Assembly (NCBI GenBank): GCA_040754335.1
Contig: JBFMCV010000004.1
Span: forward strand, 310,001-374,000
Direction of reading: 5' to 3'
DNA length: 64,000 nt
Origin: Thermodesulfobacteriota bacterium
Lineage (GTDB): Bacteria; Desulfobacterota_D; UBA1144; Nemesobacterales; UBA2774
In this document: positions 23,377 through 34,188 of the stretch, piece by piece
How positions within the stretch are numbered: position 1 is the first letter of the stretch
Layout: the number at the start of each line of letters is the position of its first letter
The notes under the pieces: generated by a model
The model's database searches: none
What the model was told of the DNA's origin: nothing
What the model saw: the letters and a program-made list of their open reading frames with translations, nothing else
Position numbers and translations under genes: made by a program

Positions 23377-23934
23377 ATGAATGACCAGTTCAAACTTAGG
23401 ATAGAAACTGATATCGAGCTCGAGCTCCTCGCGGACGGCCACGCCGAGGAGCTATTCGCCTTGACGGACAGGAACAGGGAGTATCTCCGCAGATGGCTCC
23501 CCTGGCTCGACAGCAACAAATACCTTCAGAACACCGTTGATTTCATAAAGTTCAGCAAAAAGCAGTATGAGGAAAACAGCAGTCTGCAGCTATGTATCAT
23601 GTACAAGGGCGAACTTGCCGGTGTGATAGGCTTTAACAAGGTCGACTGGCTCAATCACTCTACCGGTATCGGGTACTGGTTATCCGAGGACTGTCAGGGG
23701 AAGGGGATAATGACCGCATCGTGCGGGTGTCTTCTCGAATACGCGTTCGGCAACCTGGGGATGAACCGCGCAGAGATAAGGTGCGCGGTCGAGAACAGGC
23801 GGAGCAGGGCTATTCCCGAGAGGCTCGGGTTCACTGAGGAGGGGACCATACGGCAAGCGGAGTGGCTCTATGACCATTACGTGGACCACGTCGTTTACGG
23901 CCTCCTGAGGGAGGAATGGAAGGGCGGGGTTTGA
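23377..23934 (+). CDS. GNAT N-acetyltransferase, RimJ/RimL-like
   Basis: A 185-residue acetyl-CoA dependent transferase. 'IETDIELELLADGHAEELFALTDRN' is the usual start of RimL-type proteins that acetylate ribosomal proteins or small amines. The acetyl-CoA loop reads SEDCQGKGIMTASCGCLLEYAF (Q/R-x-x-G-x-G/A type), followed by NRAEIRCAVENRRSRAIPERLGF and the terminal YGLLREEW. The start at 23377 replaces an in-frame start at 23296 that would run back into the previous gene. The substrate is unknown; RimL/YdaF-like is only a resemblance. Confidence 0.8.
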   Translation: MNDQFKLRIETDIELELLADGHAEELFALTDRNREYLRRWLPWLDSNKYLQNTVDFIKFSKKQYEENSSLQLCIMYKGELAGVIGFNKVDWLNHSTGIGYWLSEDCQGKGIMTASCGCLLEYAFGNLGMNRAEIRCAVENRRSRAIPERLGFTEEGTIRQAEWLYDHYVDHVVYGLLREEWKGGV

Positions 23935-23972
23935 TATATTATTATGCAGCAAGCTGCCTTTGATCACGGGAT

Positions 23973-24013
23973 AAAAAAACCCTCCTAAATCCAGTGAGGA
24001 AGTAGGAGGGTTT
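23973..24013 (-). terminator. Strong intrinsic terminator, small-peptide unit
   Basis: A perfect 11-bp stem (23977-23987 with 24003-24013) and a 15-nt loop. Read on the minus strand it ends in a run of seven T. It lies 30 bp after the stop of the 26-residue ORF. On the plus strand the stem is followed by only three T, so it may also stop the GNAT transcript, less well. Confidence 0.75.
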
Positions 24014-24043
24014 AAGAGAAGCAAAAGGCAAGATGTAGTTAAG

Positions 24044-24124
24044 CTATGAAAAAAGCACTATAATCAAACCCGCGAAAATTGTTGAATATAATGCTAAATC
24101 TGCGAACCCGTAAGTTTTGTTCAT
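24044..24124 (-). CDS. 26-residue hydrophobic peptide gene
   Basis: A short ORF with its own promoter (24144-24173), a GAGG ribosome binding site (plus 24133-24136) 8 nt before the ATG, and a strong terminator after it. The peptide starts MNKTYGFADLALYS and ends in a hydrophobic run (about residues 12-26, Ile/Phe/Leu/Val), so it can form one short membrane helix. Such peptides often regulate or stabilise membrane complexes, or act as type I toxin-like peptides; which, if either, cannot be told. I recognise no family. It fills part of the otherwise gene-free stretch 23935-24339, whose remaining 24174-24339 is AT-rich with no further gene seen. Confidence 0.5.
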   Translation of the reverse strand: MNKTYGFADLALYSTIFAGLIIVLFS

Positions 24125-24143
24125 CGCCGCATCCTCTTTAAAA

Positions 24144-24173
24144 ATCATAGTCTATTAACATATAGTCCATCAA
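24144..24173 (-). promoter_or_regulatory. Promoter of the 26-residue peptide gene
   Basis: Minus strand TTGATG (plus 24168-24173), 18-bp AT-rich spacer and TATGAT (plus 24144-24149). The predicted transcript starts near 24137, directly before the ribosome binding site. Confidence 0.6.
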
Positions 24174-24339
24174 GGTTTAATTTGTTATAAATTAAAAGTT
24201 TTATTGCTCAGGTTGCCTTAAAACTATTGTATTAATACTTAAGTTAGAACTCGGTCTGAATCTTGCCGGAGTACTGATTTCTATATATTCAGCGTAATGT
24301 ATGGTTAGGCATCTGTTTTAGGTCCGGGTGTCGGGCCGG

Positions 24340-25152
24340 TCAGGGCTTTTTCGAAATGATGAGGTGGTTGGCCGCCCTTCCCTCGTCGATCAGCCTGAGG
24401 TATGTATCGAAATACTCGATGTGGTAGTCGGTATTCTCCCTGCCCTGTTCCTTTACGATCTCGTCGTAGTGTTTCTTGTACGCGTCGCCCCATTTCTTGT
24501 TCTGAACCCTGAAGTCGGATACGTACTCCGTGATCTCCTCGATCTGAAATCCGGCTTCCCGGAGTTTGGCCCGGTAATTAGAGAGGGAGTCGTAGTACTG
24601 GGGGATGAGGTAACCGCGCGCCATTTTTCTCGCTACTTCGGGGTCGTCGGGCATGTCGAACGTCCCGCTTAGAAACGCCCATATTCCTCCTTTCTTCAAA
24701 ACTCTGAGCACTTCCCTGAATAGCCCTGCTTTGTCCTCGAATACGTTCATGACGTTCAAGCTTATTGCTGTGTCGAAGGTGCTGTCGGCAAAGGGGGTTT
24801 TCATCGCATCCCCGAGATGGAATTCGGTTTTTCCCTCCAGGCCTGACTGTTTTGCGATCTTCCCGGCCATATTCACCCCGACGTCGGAGATATCCACCCC
24901 CGCTATCCTGCACCCCGTTCTGCTCGCTATGTATATGGCGGGGCCGCCGACGCCGCTCCCTACGTCGAGCACGTAGGTATCACTGCCGATGCGGAGTCTC
25001 CGTATGAGGTCGTCGAGGTATGAGGGAGTTATGAAGGACTGCTGTCCTATGTCGTTTTCCTTGCCCCATATGGAATCCCTAATGAGCCTGTTGGCCGGGC
25101 TGTCTATCTGGTGGAGTATCGAATAGTCGACCCCGATATTTTTCTCGCTCAT
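24340..25152 (-). CDS. Class I SAM-dependent methyltransferase
   Basis: A 270-residue methyltransferase with motif I VLDVGSGVGGPAIYIA, motif II CRIAGVDISDVGVN, and 'FDTAISLNVMNVFEDK' as motif IV. The layout is close to sarcosine/dimethylglycine-type and UbiE/COQ5-like small-molecule methyltransferases, including the 'DYSILHQIDSPANRLIRDSI' start. The C-terminal region ('YVSDFRVQNKKWGDAYKKHY') is variable and probably sets substrate choice. It is a lone gene on the minus strand; no partner enzyme is evident, so the substrate is not called. Confidence 0.8.
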   Translation of the reverse strand: MSEKNIGVDYSILHQIDSPANRLIRDSIWGKENDIGQQSFITPSYLDDLIRRLRIGSDTYVLDVGSGVGGPAIYIASRTGCRIAGVDISDVGVNMAGKIAKQSGLEGKTEFHLGDAMKTPFADSTFDTAISLNVMNVFEDKAGLFREVLRVLKKGGIWAFLSGTFDMPDDPEVARKMARGYLIPQYYDSLSNYRAKLREAGFQIEEITEYVSDFRVQNKKWGDAYKKHYDEIVKEQGRENTDYHIEYFDTYLRLIDEGRAANHLIISKKP

Positions 25153-25262: not shown

Positions 25263-26030
25263 TCATTTCGCGCTCATGCCCCCGTCGACAGAGAGCATCG
25301 CGCCCGTAATGAACCTGATCCTGTCGTCGCAGAGATAGAGCACCGCGTGTGCGATCTCCTCCGGCTGTGCGAGGCGGCCTATCGGGTGAACCGAGATATA
25401 CCGCTTTTCGCCGAGCACCCTGTCCCCCCATTCTTCGAACAGCTTGTCCATCATTGGGGTGTATATCGTCCCGGGGCAGACTGCGTTGACCCTGATGCCC
25501 TTATCCGCGTATTCGAGAGCCATGCTTCTCGTGAGCTGGTTCACGGCGCCTTTTGAAGCGCTGTACGCAGCGAACCCCGCAGCCGATGCCTTGAGTCCGA
25601 GTATAGACGAGTTATTCACGATCGAACCTCCCCCTTGTCTTATCATGTGGGGGAGCGTGTGCTTGGACATGAGATAAACGCCTTTGACGTTCACGTCGAA
25701 CGTCTCGTCCCATACGCAGGTATCCGTCTCGTGTGTGTTCGATCTGTAGCAGACCCCTGCGTTATTGAAAAGAATGTCTATGCGGCCGTATTCGCCGATT
25801 GTACTTTCTACTGTTTGAATGCACTCGGATTCGTTCGAGACGTCGCTCACCCGGTAGCTTATGCCGGCTCCTGATTTACCTATCTCTTCGGCCGTTTCTA
25901 TCAGCCTCTCTTCCGTTCTTCCGGTAATGACGACGTTAGCCCCTTCTTTCGCGAACAGGCTGGCCGTCGCCTTCCCGATCCCCGTGCCTCCCCCCGTGAT
26001 TATGGCCGTCTTGCCTCTCAATTTCTCCAT
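25263..26030 (-). CDS. Short-chain dehydrogenase/reductase (SDR)
   Basis: A 255-residue classical SDR. The cofactor motif is TGGGTGIGK (residues ~12-20) followed by 'NVVITGRTEERL', where the Arg after TG suggests NADP(H). NNAG is present and the catalytic YSASK with an upstream Ser (NSSILGLKAS) is intact. 'AVCPGTIYTPMMD' and the final GAMLSVDGGMSAK are typical. The substrate is unknown; the family spans sugar, steroid and fatty-acyl reductases. Divergent from the alpha-2-macroglobulin gene. Confidence 0.88.
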   Translation of the reverse strand: MEKLRGKTAIITGGGTGIGKATASLFAKEGANVVITGRTEERLIETAEEIGKSGAGISYRVSDVSNESECIQTVESTIGEYGRIDILFNNAGVCYRSNTHETDTCVWDETFDVNVKGVYLMSKHTLPHMIRQGGGSIVNNSSILGLKASAAGFAAYSASKGAVNQLTRSMALEYADKGIRVNAVCPGTIYTPMMDKLFEEWGDRVLGEKRYISVHPIGRLAQPEEIAHAVLYLCDDRIRFITGAMLSVDGGMSAK

Positions 26031-26259: not shown

Positions 26260-29200
26260 ATGGACAATTCTGGCAATAAGAAGCCCGGTTTCAGAGACCC
26301 GAAAAATATAGCGATTGCCCTCCTGGTCTTGATAGTCCTCATAATGGGGCTCATCCTTGCCAAAAACTATTTCCCCGAAACGGGCGCGAAAAAGGTTTTG
26401 ACCGGAATAGGCGGCGTATCGGTCGTCGAGGTCAAGTTCGATACCCAGGACAACACTTTCGTCGACATCGTATTCAACAAACCCATCGGCAAGAGCGAGG
26501 AGGGCGAGATACTGGGACGCGACCCCGCCGTCATAAACCCTCCCGTTAACGGCTCGTGGACATGGAAGACGCCCAACGTGCTGAGCTTTCAGGCGTCCTA
26601 CAGATTCAACATGGCCACCGATTATACGATCACGCTCAAGCCCGATAATTTTCTAAAGCCCGGGGAGTCGCTCGGCGGGAAGACCGTGTTCGAGATACGT
26701 ACGGACAAATTCAAGGTCGAGCAGGCTACGGTCGAAGAGGAGCCTGTAGAGGACGAAAAGAACACGGTGACTCTCGTCGGGACGATCGATTTCAATTACA
26801 CGGTCGATCCGACTGTGGTCGCCCGGAAGATCAGCTTGATGGAACTCCCGGCAGAGAAGGGCGGTGAGGAAAAACCGATACCCGTAAAGCTCATCACCGA
26901 TTACTGGAATACTACTATCAAGTGGCGTAGCGACCCAGTCGAGAAGATGGCCCGGGAAAGGGAGCTCAGGCTCGTCATCGTGGGTGACCTCACGCCCGCA
27001 GAAGGCAACGTCGCGCTAGGCGAGGATTACGTCGAGAAGATAATGCTTGGGTCGAAGGACAAGCTCGCCGTGAGGAGCGTCGAGCCCAAGTCCGAATACC
27101 CCAGGTCTTCTTTGGAACTTGGGTTTTCTTCTTCAGTCAGCCCGGAGATAGCGTCCGATTACATATCGGTCGAGCCCAGGGTGAGTTACAGCGTCAAGAG
27201 GATTGGGAACGATATAATACTGACAGGCGATTTCGTGCCCGGGAGCAAATACCAGCTCGCGATCGCAAAGGGCCTCCCCGCACTAGACGACGCGGTGCTG
27301 AGGGAGGATTACAAAAAAGAGATACAGTTCTCGGACCTCGCCCCCAAGCTCGAGTTCGAGAGCCCGGGGATGTTCCTCGACTCGAAGGGTACGCAGGCAG
27401 TGGTCCTGAAATCGATAAACATAGACAGCGTCGAGCTGACCGTCGACCGCGTGTACCTCAACAACATCTTCTTCCTCTTCCAGTCCTACGGATATTCGGT
27501 CTGGAGGGACGAATTTTACCAGGGCACCGTAGGGGATTTCATGGGCGGCCGCGTGGCCGAAGAGCTCGAATATAAAATAGCGAACAAGAAGAACCAGGAG
27601 GTCTCTACAGTCCTCGATCTCCAAAAATACATACCTCAAGATGAGCCGGGTCTCTATCAGGTGGGCGTGCTGCCGTCTGGGGAATACCAGGGAGTGCAGA
27701 AATGGGTGCTGATTACGGACATAGGAATCGTCGCAAAGAAGGGTAAAGACGATTTTCTCGTCTGGACCTCGTCGTTCTCGAACCTCGCGCCTGTAGCGGG
27801 CGCCGACGTCAGGGTCATAAGCAGCCAGAACCAGCTCATAGCGCGCGGCGCGACCGACGCGAAGGGCATTTTCAGGGCGTCGGGGCTGACCCGGAAATTC
27901 GCCGATAACAAGCCCTATATGGTTACCGTGCAGAAAGGCGGGGACTTCAGCTTCCTCATTCTCGACAACATGCAGATAGACGCCTCGGGGCTCGACGTAG
28001 GGGGGGCAGTGCCGTCCGCATTGGGCTATACGGCCTACGTATACGGCGAGAGGGACATATACCGCCCAGGCGAGACCGTAGAGGGTGTCGCGATAGTGAG
28101 GGACTCGAACCTCAATACGCCTTCCCCGATGCCTATAGTGCTCAAGCAGAAAGACGCGAGGGGACGCGACGTCAAAACGATAAAGGAAACTTTAAGCGCG
28201 GAGGGCCAGGTATCTTTTTCGATACCGATACCTGAGTTCGCCCCGACAGGGAACAATACGATAGAGGTGCTTGCAGGTGACGAGCTCATAGGGCAGTACC
28301 TCTTTCAGGTCGAAGAATTCATCCCTGACCGCATAAAGGTCAAGATTGAGACCGGCGAGGACAACGTCCCTCTCGGAAAGGAGCTTGCGTACGACGTAAG
28401 GAGCTCATATCTCTTCGGCCCCCCTGCTTCGGGGCTCTCGGTGCAGACGCTCGTAGACCTGGTGGAGAACCCGTTCCTCCCAGAGGGCTACGAAGGATAT
28501 GTCTTCACCAACCCGGACAGGAAATACGATTCGAAGGAGATTTTCCGGGCGGAAGGATATCTCGACTCAGAGGGCGTCAAGAAATTCACGGTCAAGATTC
28601 CCGAAGGGCTCAGGCCCGCATCATCCCTCCAGGCGCAGATATCTGCACGCGTCCAGGAAACCGGCGGCCGCGGGGTGAACTCGCTCAGGCGTGTAAACGT
28701 CGACCCCTATCCCTATTATCTCGGGCTTAAGCGGAAGACGCCCGATGAATACGCCGAGCCCGGCAAAGAGGTGGAATTCGAATACTTAGCGCTCGCTCCG
28801 AAGGGAGAGGGGACCGAAGAGGTAAAAACAGGAGAGCTCAAGGCCGAGTTTTATAAGGACGTCTGGAATACGGTGTTGAGGAGAACGTCAACCGGCAATT
28901 ACAACTATGAATCCAAGCGCGATTCCGTGCTGCTTAATTCGATGACCATCGACAGCGGGGCACCCAGAGGGAGCTTCGTTTTCACAGCGCCTGAATTCGG
29001 GAGCTACAGGGTCGTTCTGACTGATCCTAAAGGGGGCGCCTCCACCCAAGTGCAGTTCTACGCGAGCGGTTGGGGGTTCTCGCCCTGGGCTGTCGAGAAT
29101 CCCGCGCGTATAGAGCTCGGTCTCGAGAAGGCCGAATACATGCCCGGCGAGAAGGCCAGGCTTCAGGTGCGCGCGCCGTTCTCGGGAAAACTGCTCGTTA

Positions 29201-31776
29201 CTGTGGAGCGGGAGGGTGTGTACTACGCGGAAACACACACGCTCGACGGCAACACTGCCACGATCGAGGTCCCCGTCAGCGAGAAGTACAGGCCCAACGC
29301 ATACGTCACAGCCACGCTGGTCAGAGGTGTGAAGGAGCTCGAGCCGGGCTCTGCGGGGAGGGCGTTCGGGGCGATTCCTATAAATGTCGACCGCACCGCG
29401 AACAAGATAGACGTCGAAATAACGGCCCCTGAAGAAATCAGGCCGCTCACTCCCCTCGAGATAGGGGTTAAGACACAGCCGGGCGCGGCGGTCACGATCG
29501 CCGCGGTGGACGAAGGAATATTACAGCTCATAGACCAGAAGACCGCCGACCCCTTCACGTTCTTTTACAGGAAGCTCGCGCTCGAAGTGAGTTCCTACGA
29601 CACGTTCTCGCTCCTACTGCCTGACGTGTCTCTGGGGTTGTCGCCCCCGGGCGGCGGTTTCGGCGCGAGGAAGGAGATGCAGTTCCTGAGCACGCAGGGC
29701 ATAAGGAGGGTCGAGCCCGTCGCCTACTGGTCGGGCGTGCTGACTGCGGACGCGGAAGGTAAGGCGACTTTCAAGTTCGACATGCCCCAGTTCCAGGGAG
29801 CTGTCCGTATCATGGCCGTAGCGGTCAGGGGCGGGGAATTCGGATCGTCCGAAAAATTCACTCGCGTGAAATCCCCGATAGTACTCCTCCCGACTCCACC
29901 CAGGTTCTTTTCTCTAAACGAAAGCGTCGTCATACCCGTGTCTGTGAGGAACGATACGAAGAAGGACGGCGTATTCAGCATAACTACGACTATGAGCGGA
30001 CCGGGCTCCGTTGCCCTGATGAAGAGCGGCTCAGATGCCGAGAAACCGGCGAAAAATGCGAAGGAAGCGAAAATAGAGGCCGATATTCCGAACGGAGGAG
30101 AGAAGACGGTTTACTTCGTCGTGGATACGGCTGACGAGACGGGCGCGATCGCTCTCAATATAGCCGCGGCCGGCAACGGTGAATCCACGAGCTCGTACAT
30201 GGATGTCCCTGTGCTCCCCGACCTTCCTCTGAGCAGGGTCGAGAAAATCGGCAGCATAATGAACGCGGACACGGAGCTCGCAATCGACAACGTGGAATCT
30301 TACCGTACCGGGACTATCGGAAGGGAGCTGTACATAAGCAAGCTCCCGCTCATACAGTTTTCAGGGAAGCTCGAATACCTGCTCCAGTACCCGTACGGAT
30401 GCCTCGAGCAGGTCACTTCCCGCGTATTCCCCCTCATATACCTTTCCGACATAGCGAAGGAAATAGACCCCGATCTGTTCAAGAATGCCGACCCGGCGGC
30501 GATGGTGCAGGAGGGGATAAGACAGATAGGCACGATGCAGGTGGCGGGAGGGGGCTTCTCATTATGGCCTGGCGGTGTGCAGGCTGAGCCCTGGGTCAGC
30601 ATATACGCCGCCCATTTCCTTGTCGAGGCGCGTAAGGCGGGATATTTCATCGACGACTCCCTTTATTCAGGCGCGATCGAATATTTGAAGAACGTGGCGA
30701 AGGCCAAGCCTGATTACAGCACCGGAGAGCTCGAGAGAGCCGTTTACGCGCTCTATGTGCTGAGCCGCGACGGAAAGCCCGATCTCAGCACGATGGATTT
30801 CATAAGGGACCGCCACGTTGGCGAGCTTACGGTAGAATCGAAGGCGCTTTTAGGCGGGGCGTACGCCGCCGCGGGGAATGCAGCCGCGCTCGAGGAGCTC
30901 CTCAAGGGCCTTAACGACGTGGAAGAGATCACGAGAGAGACGGGCGGAAATTTCAATTCCACGATCAGGAACAGGGCGATACTGCTTCTCGCGATACTCG
31001 ACGTAAACCCGGACGACCCGAGGGTACCCGCTCTCGTCGAACGTCTGTCGAGAGACGCTGAGTTAAACGCCTGGTGGACAACCCAGGAGAGCTCTTTCGC
31101 CCTCCTCGCTATCGGCCAGTTCGTCAAGAGGCAGATCGAGACCCCGCCTTACACGGGAAAGGTGTACGCCGGCGACGAAGAGATAGCGACTTTCAGCAGC
31201 GAAGCGACGTTGAGCCTCACCGCCATTACGGGCGACAAGCCCGTCAGTATAAAGATGGACGACGGGTTCAAGGAAGGGAGCGCGTTCTTTACATTGATTA
31301 CGAGCGGTATCCCGACGAGAAAAGGGTTTAAGCCTGTCGAGGACGGTCTCCTCGTAGCGAGAGAATTTCTTACAAGAGACGGCGCTCCGCTCGACCCGAA
31401 TAATATCGTCCAGGGCGACCTGGTTGTAGTCAGGACGAAGATTCAGAGCGCTTCGGGAAAGATAGAGAACCTCGTAATAGAAAACCTCCTGCCCTCCGGG
31501 TTCGAGGTGGAAAACCCGAGGCTCAAGACGACAGAGACCCTGTCATGGGCGACCGGGGACAGCGTTGAGCCAGCATACCTCGACATCAGGGACGACCGCA
31601 TACTGATATTCACCGATCTCCCGGACGCGAAATGGTACAACTACTACGCGCTTCTCCGCGTCGTGAACCCGGGCACTTTCACCGTGCCGCCGGTTCAGGC
31701 TGAGGCGATGTATTCGCCCAATATCAGGTACACGGGAAAGCTCGAGAACCCGTTCGTCGTTAAGCTGAGACAGTAA
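26260..31776 (+). CDS. yfhM: Bacterial alpha-2-macroglobulin (YfhM-type)
   Basis: An 1838-residue periplasmic protease trap. Residues ~15-35 form a signal anchor after a short basic cytoplasmic end; no lipobox Cys is seen, unlike the E. coli lipoprotein. A long series of beta-sandwich MG-like domains follows. The thioester site CLEQ is intact (Cys1381 to Gln1384, in YPYGCLEQ), so the protein can covalently trap attacking proteases. The alpha/alpha barrel thioester domain spans about residues 1380-1680, and a receptor-like beta domain closes the protein. The gene sits 3 bp before pbpC, the pairing known from many Gram-negatives, where the pair is proposed to protect or repair the wall under attack. 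Confidence 0.93.
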   Translation: MDNSGNKKPGFRDPKNIAIALLVLIVLIMGLILAKNYFPETGAKKVLTGIGGVSVVEVKFDTQDNTFVDIVFNKPIGKSEEGEILGRDPAVINPPVNGSWTWKTPNVLSFQASYRFNMATDYTITLKPDNFLKPGESLGGKTVFEIRTDKFKVEQATVEEEPVEDEKNTVTLVGTIDFNYTVDPTVVARKISLMELPAEKGGEEKPIPVKLITDYWNTTIKWRSDPVEKMARERELRLVIVGDLTPAEGNVALGEDYVEKIMLGSKDKLAVRSVEPKSEYPRSSLELGFSSSVSPEIASDYISVEPRVSYSVKRIGNDIILTGDFVPGSKYQLAIAKGLPALDDAVLREDYKKEIQFSDLAPKLEFESPGMFLDSKGTQAVVLKSINIDSVELTVDRVYLNNIFFLFQSYGYSVWRDEFYQGTVGDFMGGRVAEELEYKIANKKNQEVSTVLDLQKYIPQDEPGLYQVGVLPSGEYQGVQKWVLITDIGIVAKKGKDDFLVWTSSFSNLAPVAGADVRVISSQNQLIARGATDAKGIFRASGLTRKFADNKPYMVTVQKGGDFSFLILDNMQIDASGLDVGGAVPSALGYTAYVYGERDIYRPGETVEGVAIVRDSNLNTPSPMPIVLKQKDARGRDVKTIKETLSAEGQVSFSIPIPEFAPTGNNTIEVLAGDELIGQYLFQVEEFIPDRIKVKIETGEDNVPLGKELAYDVRSSYLFGPPASGLSVQTLVDLVENPFLPEGYEGYVFTNPDRKYDSKEIFRAEGYLDSEGVKKFTVKIPEGLRPASSLQAQISARVQETGGRGVNSLRRVNVDPYPYYLGLKRKTPDEYAEPGKEVEFEYLALAPKGEGTEEVKTGELKAEFYKDVWNTVLRRTSTGNYNYESKRDSVLLNSMTIDSGAPRGSFVFTAPEFGSYRVVLTDPKGGASTQVQFYASGWGFSPWAVENPARIELGLEKAEYMPGEKARLQVRAPFSGKLLVTVEREGVYYAETHTLDGNTATIEVPVSEKYRPNAYVTATLVRGVKELEPGSAGRAFGAIPINVDRTANKIDVEITAPEEIRPLTPLEIGVKTQPGAAVTIAAVDEGILQLIDQKTADPFTFFYRKLALEVSSYDTFSLLLPDVSLGLSPPGGGFGARKEMQFLSTQGIRRVEPVAYWSGVLTADAEGKATFKFDMPQFQGAVRIMAVAVRGGEFGSSEKFTRVKSPIVLLPTPPRFFSLNESVVIPVSVRNDTKKDGVFSITTTMSGPGSVALMKSGSDAEKPAKNAKEAKIEADIPNGGEKTVYFVVDTADETGAIALNIAAAGNGESTSSYMDVPVLPDLPLSRVEKIGSIMNADTELAIDNVESYRTGTIGRELYISKLPLIQFSGKLEYLLQYPYGCLEQVTSRVFPLIYLSDIAKEIDPDLFKNADPAAMVQEGIRQIGTMQVAGGGFSLWPGGVQAEPWVSIYAAHFLVEARKAGYFIDDSLYSGAIEYLKNVAKAKPDYSTGELERAVYALYVLSRDGKPDLSTMDFIRDRHVGELTVESKALLGGAYAAAGNAAALEELLKGLNDVEEITRETGGNFNSTIRNRAILLLAILDVNPDDPRVPALVERLSRDAELNAWWTTQESSFALLAIGQFVKRQIETPPYTGKVYAGDEEIATFSSEATLSLTAITGDKPVSIKMDDGFKEGSAFFTLITSGIPTRKGFKPVEDGLLVAREFLTRDGAPLDPNNIVQGDLVVVRTKIQSASGKIENLVIENLLPSGFEVENPRLKTTETLSWATGDSVEPAYLDIRDDRILIFTDLPDAKWYNYYALLRVVNPGTFTVPPVQAEAMYSPNIRYTGKLENPFVVKLRQ

Positions 31777-31818
31777 TCGTTGCCGGGTTATTTTATGCGG
31801 ATACCGAGAGGAATGACG

Positions 31819-34188
31819 ATGCTCGCCGGACGATTTAAAAAACTCGCTGTAATATTTTTTTTCGCGTCGTCCGCATTCGTTTTCTCCGCGCTCCTGCTTT
31901 TTTTTGCGCTCGATCTCTTGTTCCCGTTCCCTGCGGAATCGCTGAGGCGAGAGCCGACGGCCGTTATCACGGACAAAGACGGAAGACCACTCAGATTCTT
32001 TCTTTCACGGGACAAGCGCTGGCGCTTCCCCGTAAAGCTCGCGGACGTTTCCCCCAAGCTCGCCGAGGCCGTGATAGCGTCCGAGGACAGGTGGTTCCGC
32101 AGCCATCCCGGCGTGAACCCGTTTGCTCTCTTGAGGGCCTTTTATACGAATCTAAAAGAGGGGAGGGTCGTCTCGGGCGCGTCTACCATTCCTATGCAGA
32201 TAGCCCGCATGGCCGACCCGAAATCGAGGACTATTTTTTCCAAACTGGAAGAGGCGTTCCGCGCTCTCCAGTTAAAGCGGATGTACAGCGATGACGAGCT
32301 GCTCGAGATTTATCTCAACCTGGCTCCCTACGGCGGCAATATAGAGGGAATAGGAGCGGCGTCCTATTTTTACTTCGGGAAAACCCCGCGCGCGCTCACG
32401 CCGGGCGAGATAGCACTGCTCACTGCGCTCCCGCGCTCCCCAGCCGCCTACGACCCGGTCAGGAACCCGAAAGATTCGGAGAAGGAAAGGAACAAGGTAC
32501 TGGGACAGCTTGCGGCGAGAGGGGTCCTCACGTCCGGGGAAGCTTCCGAGGGAGCGAAAGAAGCAGTCCCCAGGGCGAAGAAGCCCCAGCCCTTCGCCGC
32601 GCCCCACTTCTCGGAATTCGCCTACAGGGACATTGCGAAAGGCGGGAGCCTCGAGACCACTCTCGACCCGTCGATCCAGAAGGTCGCGGAAGAGGTCGCT
32701 AAGCGTCATATAGGGATCCTCAGGAACGGCGGCATAGACAACCTTGCGATAGTCGTGATAGAGAACGATACGAGGAAGCTCAGGGCAATGGTCGGCTCGG
32801 CCGATTACTTCGACAAGGACCATTCGGGTCAGGTCAACTTCACGCTGGCGAGACGCTCACCGGGCTCCGCTCTGAAACCGTTTCTTTATGCCATGGCTCT
32901 CGATGAGGGAATAGCGGTACCCGATACCTATGTTCTCGACATACCTACCGACTTCTCGGGTTACGTCGCGGAGAATTACGACAGCAAGTACAGGGGGAGG
33001 ATAACCCTCGAGAACGCTCTGATACTTTCGCTAAACGCCCCTGCGGTCAGGATGCTGTCGCAGATCGGCCTCAAGGATTTTCACGAGCTCCTTTTAAAGG
33101 CCGGCCTTTCCACGCTCGACAGGCCGTCCAATAAATACGGGCTCCCGCTAATTCTCGGAGCGGGAGAAGTGAGGCTCATCGACCTCACTAATCTGTACGC
33201 GACGCTCGCGGCGGGAGGCGGTCACGAGCCTGTGATCATCACCGAAGACGCAAACCACGAATCTGCTCCGGCAGGACTCTTTTCGCCTGAAGCGTCTTAT
33301 CTTATTACGGAGATACTGACGGGCCTCAAGCGCCCCGATATGCCTTCCAACTCATGGGCGCTCACCGAGGACGTCCCCGAGGTCGCGTGGAAGACGGGCA
33401 CCTCCTACGGGCACAGGGACGCGTGGTCGCTCGGGTACTCGGACAAGTACACGATCGGGGTCTGGGTGGGCAATCCGGACGGAAGGGGGCAAAAAGGCAT
33501 CTCCGGATCGGAGCATGCGGCGCCGATACTGTTCGATGTATTCAGGGGCGTGGAAGGTGACGGCTCGAGGATAAGCAGGCCCGAAGGGCTCAGGCTCGGC
33601 ACTGTCGAGGTGTGCAGGGAGAGCCACCTTCTCCCGACCCCCTACTGCGGGGAGAGGGACAAGGTCACGTACATAAAAGGCGTGTCACGAATACCCAGGG
33701 ACAATTACTCAAAAAAGATATTCGTCGATAAGGAGTCCGGGGACCTGCTCCTTGGAGACTGCATAGGTGAGCGACCGCACGAATCGCGTGTTATCACGAC
33801 CTATCCCCCCGAGCTCGTCGCATGGTGGATGGCAGAAGGCGTGAAGAGGGACGCTTTCCCTCCCCTCAGCCCTTACTGTAACGACGTCTCATCCGAGCGG
33901 CCGCCTCAGATTCTGTCGCCCGATAAATCGACCCCTTACCGCGTGCTCGACGGCATGCCCTCCGAGTATCAGAGGGTCGAGCTCATCGCCGGTGTGAGCG
34001 AAGAGGTGAGCGCCCTCTACTGGTATCAGGACGGGAAGCTCGTGGCCTCGACTCGCCCTTACAAGAAAACGTTCATACCGCTGACTGCGGGCAGGCACCG
34101 CCTCGTCGTGGTGGATTCATCCGGGCGCTCGGACAACATCACGTATAAGGTCGAGAGCCGTGACAGCGTCGAAGTCGTCGAGAGATGA
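31819..34188 (+). CDS. pbpC: Penicillin-binding protein 1C
   Basis: A bifunctional peptidoglycan synthase anchored in the inner membrane. One membrane helix at the start is followed by the GT51 glycosyltransferase (EDRWFRSHPGVNP, GASTIPMQIARM), then the transpeptidase with SALK (in SPGSALKPF), SLNAP as the SxN box, and KTGTSYG. The C-terminal ~100 residues are the BiPBP_C module typical of PBP1C. Start 31819 is chosen because GAGAGG (31806-31811) lies 7 nt upstream; in-frame starts at 31780 and 31795 lack a ribosome site. Translation probably follows yfhM from the same mRNA. PBP1C's glycosyltransferase is active elsewhere while its transpeptidase role is less clear. Confidence 0.93.
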   Translation: MLAGRFKKLAVIFFFASSAFVFSALLLFFALDLLFPFPAESLRREPTAVITDKDGRPLRFFLSRDKRWRFPVKLADVSPKLAEAVIASEDRWFRSHPGVNPFALLRAFYTNLKEGRVVSGASTIPMQIARMADPKSRTIFSKLEEAFRALQLKRMYSDDELLEIYLNLAPYGGNIEGIGAASYFYFGKTPRALTPGEIALLTALPRSPAAYDPVRNPKDSEKERNKVLGQLAARGVLTSGEASEGAKEAVPRAKKPQPFAAPHFSEFAYRDIAKGGSLETTLDPSIQKVAEEVAKRHIGILRNGGIDNLAIVVIENDTRKLRAMVGSADYFDKDHSGQVNFTLARRSPGSALKPFLYAMALDEGIAVPDTYVLDIPTDFSGYVAENYDSKYRGRITLENALILSLNAPAVRMLSQIGLKDFHELLLKAGLSTLDRPSNKYGLPLILGAGEVRLIDLTNLYATLAAGGGHEPVIITEDANHESAPAGLFSPEASYLITEILTGLKRPDMPSNSWALTEDVPEVAWKTGTSYGHRDAWSLGYSDKYTIGVWVGNPDGRGQKGISGSEHAAPILFDVFRGVEGDGSRISRPEGLRLGTVEVCRESHLLPTPYCGERDKVTYIKGVSRIPRDNYSKKIFVDKESGDLLLGDCIGERPHESRVITTYPPELVAWWMAEGVKRDAFPPLSPYCNDVSSERPPQILSPDKSTPYRVLDGMPSEYQRVELIAGVSEEVSALYWYQDGKLVASTRPYKKTFIPLTAGRHRLVVVDSSGRSDNITYKVESRDSVEVVER

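Follow-up and report, generated by a model that had tools for sequence, protein, structure and literature searches.

A candidate dual-function RNA of Candidatus Dadabacteria with a conserved small-peptide frame and an invariant RNA stretch

We wanted to know what is made from a compact unit on the minus strand of a Thermodesulfobacteriota bacterium genome, in which a sigma-70-like promoter, a GAGG site, an ATG, a frame of 26 codons and a U-tailed terminator follow one another from position 24173 to 23973 of the stretch analysed here (64,000 nucleotides of contig JBFMCV010000004.1, hereafter the window). Does it give a small protein, a regulatory RNA or both? The original prediction, made from the letters alone, had noted promoter, GAGG, open reading frame (ORF) and terminator in the right order without stating a strand, and had offered a membrane regulator, a toxin-like peptide or a dual-function RNA. 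All four elements were found, and the last of the three options fits best. Our preferred reading, which we consider probable, is that the unit is a dual-function regulatory RNA of Candidatus Dadabacteria, built like SgrS/SgrT and not homologous to it. Its main feature was absent from the original prediction, namely an invariant stretch of 29-31 nt (TAACTACATCTTGCCTTTTGCTTCTCTTA) that lies directly after the stop codon and is followed by the terminator hairpin in 13 genomes of one family. With the palindrome upstream of the promoter, the compact unit spans 24235-23973 of the minus strand and contains the following features:

24219-24235, minus strand: palindromic operator-like site TTAATACAATAGTTTTA (ungapped alignment at the same distance from the -35 box, 13 of 13 loci)
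24144-24183, minus strand: promoter, AAATTAAACC-TTGATG (-35), 18-nt spacer and TATGAT (-10) (hexamer positions and spacing identical at 13 of 13 loci)
24173-24168, minus strand: -35 box TTGATG (sequence)
24149-24144, minus strand: -10 box TATGAT (sequence)
24133-24136, minus strand: Shine-Dalgarno GAGG, 8 nt before the ATG (sequence)
24044-24124, minus strand: 26-codon ORF, MNKTYGFADLALYSTIFAGLIIVLFS, with a single predicted membrane span (homologues, substitution rates, hydropathy)
24013-24043, minus strand: invariant RNA stretch CTTAACTACATCTTGCCTTTTGCTTCTCTTA, proposed base-pairing (seed) region (conservation; also in genomes without the ORF)
23973-24013, minus strand: intrinsic terminator, interrupted hairpin ACCCUCC.../...GGAGGGU with a U-run (covariation)

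When 61 genomes were searched at the DNA level, strong matches came only from the family to which the window belongs, and the unit was oriented and aligned in 13 of its genomes. The organisms at these loci are named Candidatus Dadabacteria, or are metagenome-assembled genomes labelled Deltaproteobacteria, Thermodesulfobacteriales or Thermodesulfobacteriota. The peptide frame is conserved in eight species from four sampled genera of the family (all but one genus, g2), with the pattern M(N/K)K(T/S)YG(F/Y)xD(L/I)ALYS..(F/I)A....(L/F)(F/L)(S/A). Between the window and its nearest relative (L001-L002), 10 of the 11 differences in the ORF are synonymous third positions, and the ratio of nonsynonymous to synonymous substitution rates (dN/dS) in six close pairs is 0.02, 0.01, 0.16, 0.06, 0.10 and 0.09. 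By these substitution patterns the peptide is shown to be under purifying selection. Moreover, a profile of the eight peptides retrieved two homologues in a second family of the order, MKKGYNLLDLATWSIIIAGIIIMTLG and MKKNYNFLDLASLSIIITGFLVIMWC (E values of 2.4e-5 and 1.3e-4 in the first search), one of which has a similar -35 region (AAATAAATCTTGATG) and adjoins the same alpha-2-macroglobulin gene. With a grand average of hydropathy of 1.2 and a best 17-residue window of 2.2, the peptide is predicted to be a single-span membrane protein. When three of the peptides were searched against the Pfam and NCBIfam profiles, 0 families were returned at E up to 10, and PHROGs gave two unnamed families, each matching one of ten members (best E 8e-4). 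The set appears to add an undescribed family of 26-30-residue membrane peptides, the span being predicted. The longest listed frame, of 34 residues (ATG at 24148), was rejected, since its start falls within the -10 box and shows no conservation; 26 codons are right. In another genus (g3, L007 and L008), the peptide start shifts to an ATG near the expected transcription start, so that the mRNA would be leaderless and the N-terminus extended by 3-4 residues.

The second module is the stretch after the stop codon. Across six disjoint species pairs, 2 of the 174 positions compared in its 29-nt part differ, whereas the synonymous sites of the adjoining ORF differ at about 0.56-0.73 in close pairs. 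In this comparison, the sequence of the stretch is shown to be under selection as RNA. Stretch and terminator together gave a full-length strong match at all 13 loci and nowhere else in 58 genomes of the class. Likewise, when a covariance model was built from the two, the same 13 loci were recovered over their full length, with E of about 1e-18 to 1e-20, and the other families of the class gave no match of that order. At the gathering score Rfam had no match for the window, the unit itself giving only sub-threshold hits (E 0.5-3), and the RNA family is absent from Rfam. Folded with the terminator alone, the stretch is unpaired. The terminator itself (stem-loop 24013-23977, T-run 23979-23973) covaries, with 97.9% of cells paired and 17 two-sided compensatory cells as compared to 6.5 in shuffles (0/500). 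The hairpin and the seven-U run predicted before were recovered, while the 11-bp stem was too simple: a 2x2 internal loop interrupts its 11+3 pairs, in which three of the seven U take part. A second, degenerate copy of the stretch (CTAAATCTTGCCTTTTGATTCTCTTA, one mismatch) was seen in one g2 genome, without a clear terminator (L046 near 1500, G004:C43:7637-7679). Other matches of a 19-mer in the genome collection lacked the hairpin and were taken as chance, as was one match in a viral contig, located inside an open coding frame.

The two modules part from each other in both directions. The five species of g2 (L009-L013) lack the peptide frame but retain promoter, palindrome, stretch and terminator; their transcript would be shorter by some 20-45 nt, and no copy of the peptide turned up at another place in their genomes. 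Conversely, in the second family the peptide is present and the RNA stretch is absent. From the alignments, peptide and RNA modules thus dissociate both ways, and the promoter-to-terminator unit is shown, at this level, to hold two independently selected modules. By parsimony, the peptide may be the older part, with the stretch gained in one family and the peptide lost in g2. The original prediction had proposed to look for covariation and for conservation of the frame, and both were observed, the frame being kept in four genera and the second family. It had also stated that relatives keeping the hairpin and not the frame would speak against it. Such relatives exist in one genus, g2, while the frame is strictly kept elsewhere, and this means that the frame is real and that the RNA module is able to persist in its absence. 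Three family genomes yielded no copy of the unit; in G015, one of the three, the contig breaks off inside the adjacent methyltransferase gene.

Could such a unit arise by chance? Taken singly, its elements are weak evidence. Promoter-like sites numbered 8 in 4 kb against 3.6 +/- 1.9 in shuffles, and the terminator hairpin was overlooked by a simple terminator scan. The fold of the unit as a whole (z = -5.5) does exceed chance, and so, above all, does conservation: promoter, peptide, stretch and hairpin recur in the same order in relatives, the RNA part at 13 loci and the peptide at 8 of these. The view of the unit as a self-contained one for a hydrophobic peptide is strongly supported.

Upstream of the frame, the extended promoter pattern (AAATTAAACC with the hexamers) occurs once in the window and in none of the shuffles. 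The palindrome, a putative regulator site that can be written as TTAATACTTTAGTATTAA (family consensus TTAATACTTTAGTATTA), stands exactly 45 bp before the -35 box without any indel at 13 of 13 loci; its first base is 62 bp upstream of the -35 box and its centre some 90 bp ahead of the point where transcription is likely to start. Such fixed spacing would fit an activator or a repressor working with polymerase. Exact copies of TTAATACTTTAGTATTA were seen elsewhere in three genomes of the same genus. In the genome of the window, one copy lies between Hsp20-like and BtrH-like genes (G000:C7:144032-144048, L092 1501-1517), these names being read from sequence and not assigned by profile. The motif also recurs, exactly or nearly, in intergenic positions in L106, L107 and L109 (sister species), L090/L091 and L108, one of them before a FecR-like gene. 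The recurrence near other genes suggests the regulon of one transcription factor.

The genes that flank the unit are:

23380-23934, plus strand: GNAT acetyltransferase gene, convergent with the unit and next downstream
24340-25152, minus strand: methyltransferase gene, the upstream flank
25263-26030, minus strand: SDR gene, beyond the methyltransferase gene

In five of five relatives inspected, the unit has kept its position, flanked by the GNAT side and the SDR gene. In the two g2 genomes inspected, this syntenic place is kept, with one extra convergent gene between the unit and GNAT. A mobile origin was rejected, the unit being present as a single copy in its own genome. Farther on, at 26260-34188 of the window, a large bacterial alpha-2-macroglobulin gene and then a penicillin-binding protein 1C-type gene are divergent from the SDR and peptide side; the alpha-2-macroglobulin neighbour is common to the window and to the peptide locus of the second family.

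How would a dual-function RNA work here? A factor bound at the palindrome about 90 bp upstream of the start would control the sigma-70-type promoter, from which a transcript of about 165-180 nt would be made. Its 5' half would be translated into the 26-residue peptide and inserted in the membrane by a single span. Its 3' half, the pyrimidine-rich stretch beside the terminator, would act as RNA, most likely by pairing in trans with purine-rich Shine-Dalgarno regions and so reducing the translation of one or more mRNAs. The peptide would presumably target a membrane protein that takes part in this response, much as SgrT does. As judged by sequence only, the unit has three of the features that define a dual-function RNA, namely a selected small ORF, a separate conserved RNA element, and its own promoter and terminator.

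Several results weigh against this proposal. No convincing target was found when complements of the stretch with up to 3 mismatches were sought, as the best ones, with 1-3 mismatches, lie in coding sequence and are common to close orthologues only. Neither did searches with 10-mers anchored on Shine-Dalgarno or ATG give a gene recurring across genera, and the neighbouring genes, scored by duplex energy, did no better with the stretch than with shuffled ones. Part of the stretch is paired when the entire transcript is folded. A search of 16 family genomes, 10 of which are 90% complete or better, detected no Hfq (PF17209), while the control search was positive in five named genomes including E. 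coli; pairing, if any, would run without Hfq or with another chaperone. Finally, neither peptide nor stretch was detected in G001 and G008, two genomes whose orthologous locus was not located either. Apart from this, 1-3-mismatch complementarity to the stretch was seen in a nuoA-like coding sequence (KREAKGK region) of several g2 genomes (L039, L069, L077 and L079). It was rejected as a target, being deep in the coding sequence and shared by descent, and is probably a coincidence.

The main rival is that the unit is a small-protein mRNA whose conserved 3' end binds a protein, such as an RNA-binding regulator, a stability factor or a guard against a ribonuclease, and pairs with no mRNA, the g2 RNA then being a protein decoy or sponge. 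The invariance of a stretch for which no mRNA target was found and the failure to find Hfq in the family both favour it. Nevertheless, no known protein-binding motif was recognised in the stretch, an unstructured and continuous constraint over 29-31 nt is more typical of base pairing, and Rfam gave no match, and we consider this rival unlikely. Less plausible still is a role in cis, in which the stretch would fold back to pair with the Shine-Dalgarno site of the peptide ORF (AGAGG with CUUCUCU), restraining translation as in some toxin mRNAs. The minimum-energy fold of the window transcript does pair AGAGGAUGC with GCUUCUCU, and g2 leaders still begin with AGAGAG or AGAGGAG. On the other hand, pairing of the first 18 nt with the stretch was no better than in shuffles at 12 of 13 loci, g3 leaders lack AGAG while the stretch is unchanged, and g2 has no ORF to regulate. 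Even more improbable is a type I toxin, a hydrophobic peptide checked by an antisense RNA. A short hydrophobic peptide with its own promoter and terminator would suit it; against it stand the single copy in the genome, the vertical and syntenic inheritance, dN/dS down to 0.01-0.02, and the lack of any plus-strand promoter-like site in a consensus scan of 23934-24124, from the GNAT stop to the ORF start. The toxin-like peptide of the original prediction is unsupported for the same reasons. A leader peptide or attenuator controlling a downstream gene is very improbable: a small ORF does precede a terminator and the weak Rfam matches (sub-threshold, E 0.5-3) are to leader-type families, yet the peptide itself is conserved rather than a run of regulatory codons, and the reading is refuted by gene order, as the GNAT gene downstream is convergent and convergent genes also follow in the five syntenic relatives inspected. 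That the ORF is a chance one in an intergenic region can be dismissed, since the codon-position pattern of purifying selection and the independent homologues refute it, common as each element is on its own.

Returning to the dual-function RNA, known systems offer a frame for it. In SgrS/SgrT, sgrT lies at the 5' end, the pairing region comes between it and the terminator, and in Yersinia the RNA module is kept while sgrT is lost (PMC4021124). The present unit has the same build (5' small-protein ORF, putative 3' pairing region, terminator), and g2 likewise keeps the RNA where the ORF is lost. It differs in that there is no sequence similarity, no SgrS match in Rfam for the window at the gathering score or for the unit up to E 10, a conserved and hydrophobic peptide of 26 residues instead of 43, no Hfq found, no sugar-transport target seen, and a peptide that also occurs without the RNA stretch in another family. 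VcdRP of Vibrio cholerae combines a 29-residue small protein, a conserved pairing stretch, a terminator and a regulator site upstream of the -35 box (PMC8672173). These parts have counterparts here, the pairing role and the upstream site being putative; in contrast, the VcdRP transcript has 306 nt, its pairing element is four C, and its ORF and RNA are always conserved together, whereas here they are dissociated. YohP has 27 residues and is essentially one membrane span (PMC7549839). The peptide is alike in size and composition to small membrane proteins of the YohP type but has no Pfam or NCBIfam match, and its mRNA carries a second, invariant RNA module. By analogy, the unit would work like SgrS/SgrT and VcdRP, but it belongs to neither family, with no Rfam match, no protein match and no Hfq found.

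As for the history of the locus, we tentatively propose, with rather less confidence than the dual function itself, that an mRNA for a small protein, already present in the ancestor of at least two Dadabacteria families, gained a trans-acting 3' untranslated module in one of them, and that in one genus the RNA replaced the protein, so that the same locus and promoter now yield a noncoding regulator in place of an mRNA, in bacteria with no Hfq found. Proven dual-function RNAs are few, and the examples considered here (SgrS/SgrT, VcdRP and Spot 42) come from well-studied Proteobacteria, while the present case was found from sequence in an uncultured lineage without detectable Hfq. Its interest rests on the two-way dissociation and on this lineage. 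Since the parts are naturally separated in different genera, the contributions of peptide and RNA can be tested without engineered separation, and the locus may serve as an example of coding and regulatory functions joining and parting in one transcript.
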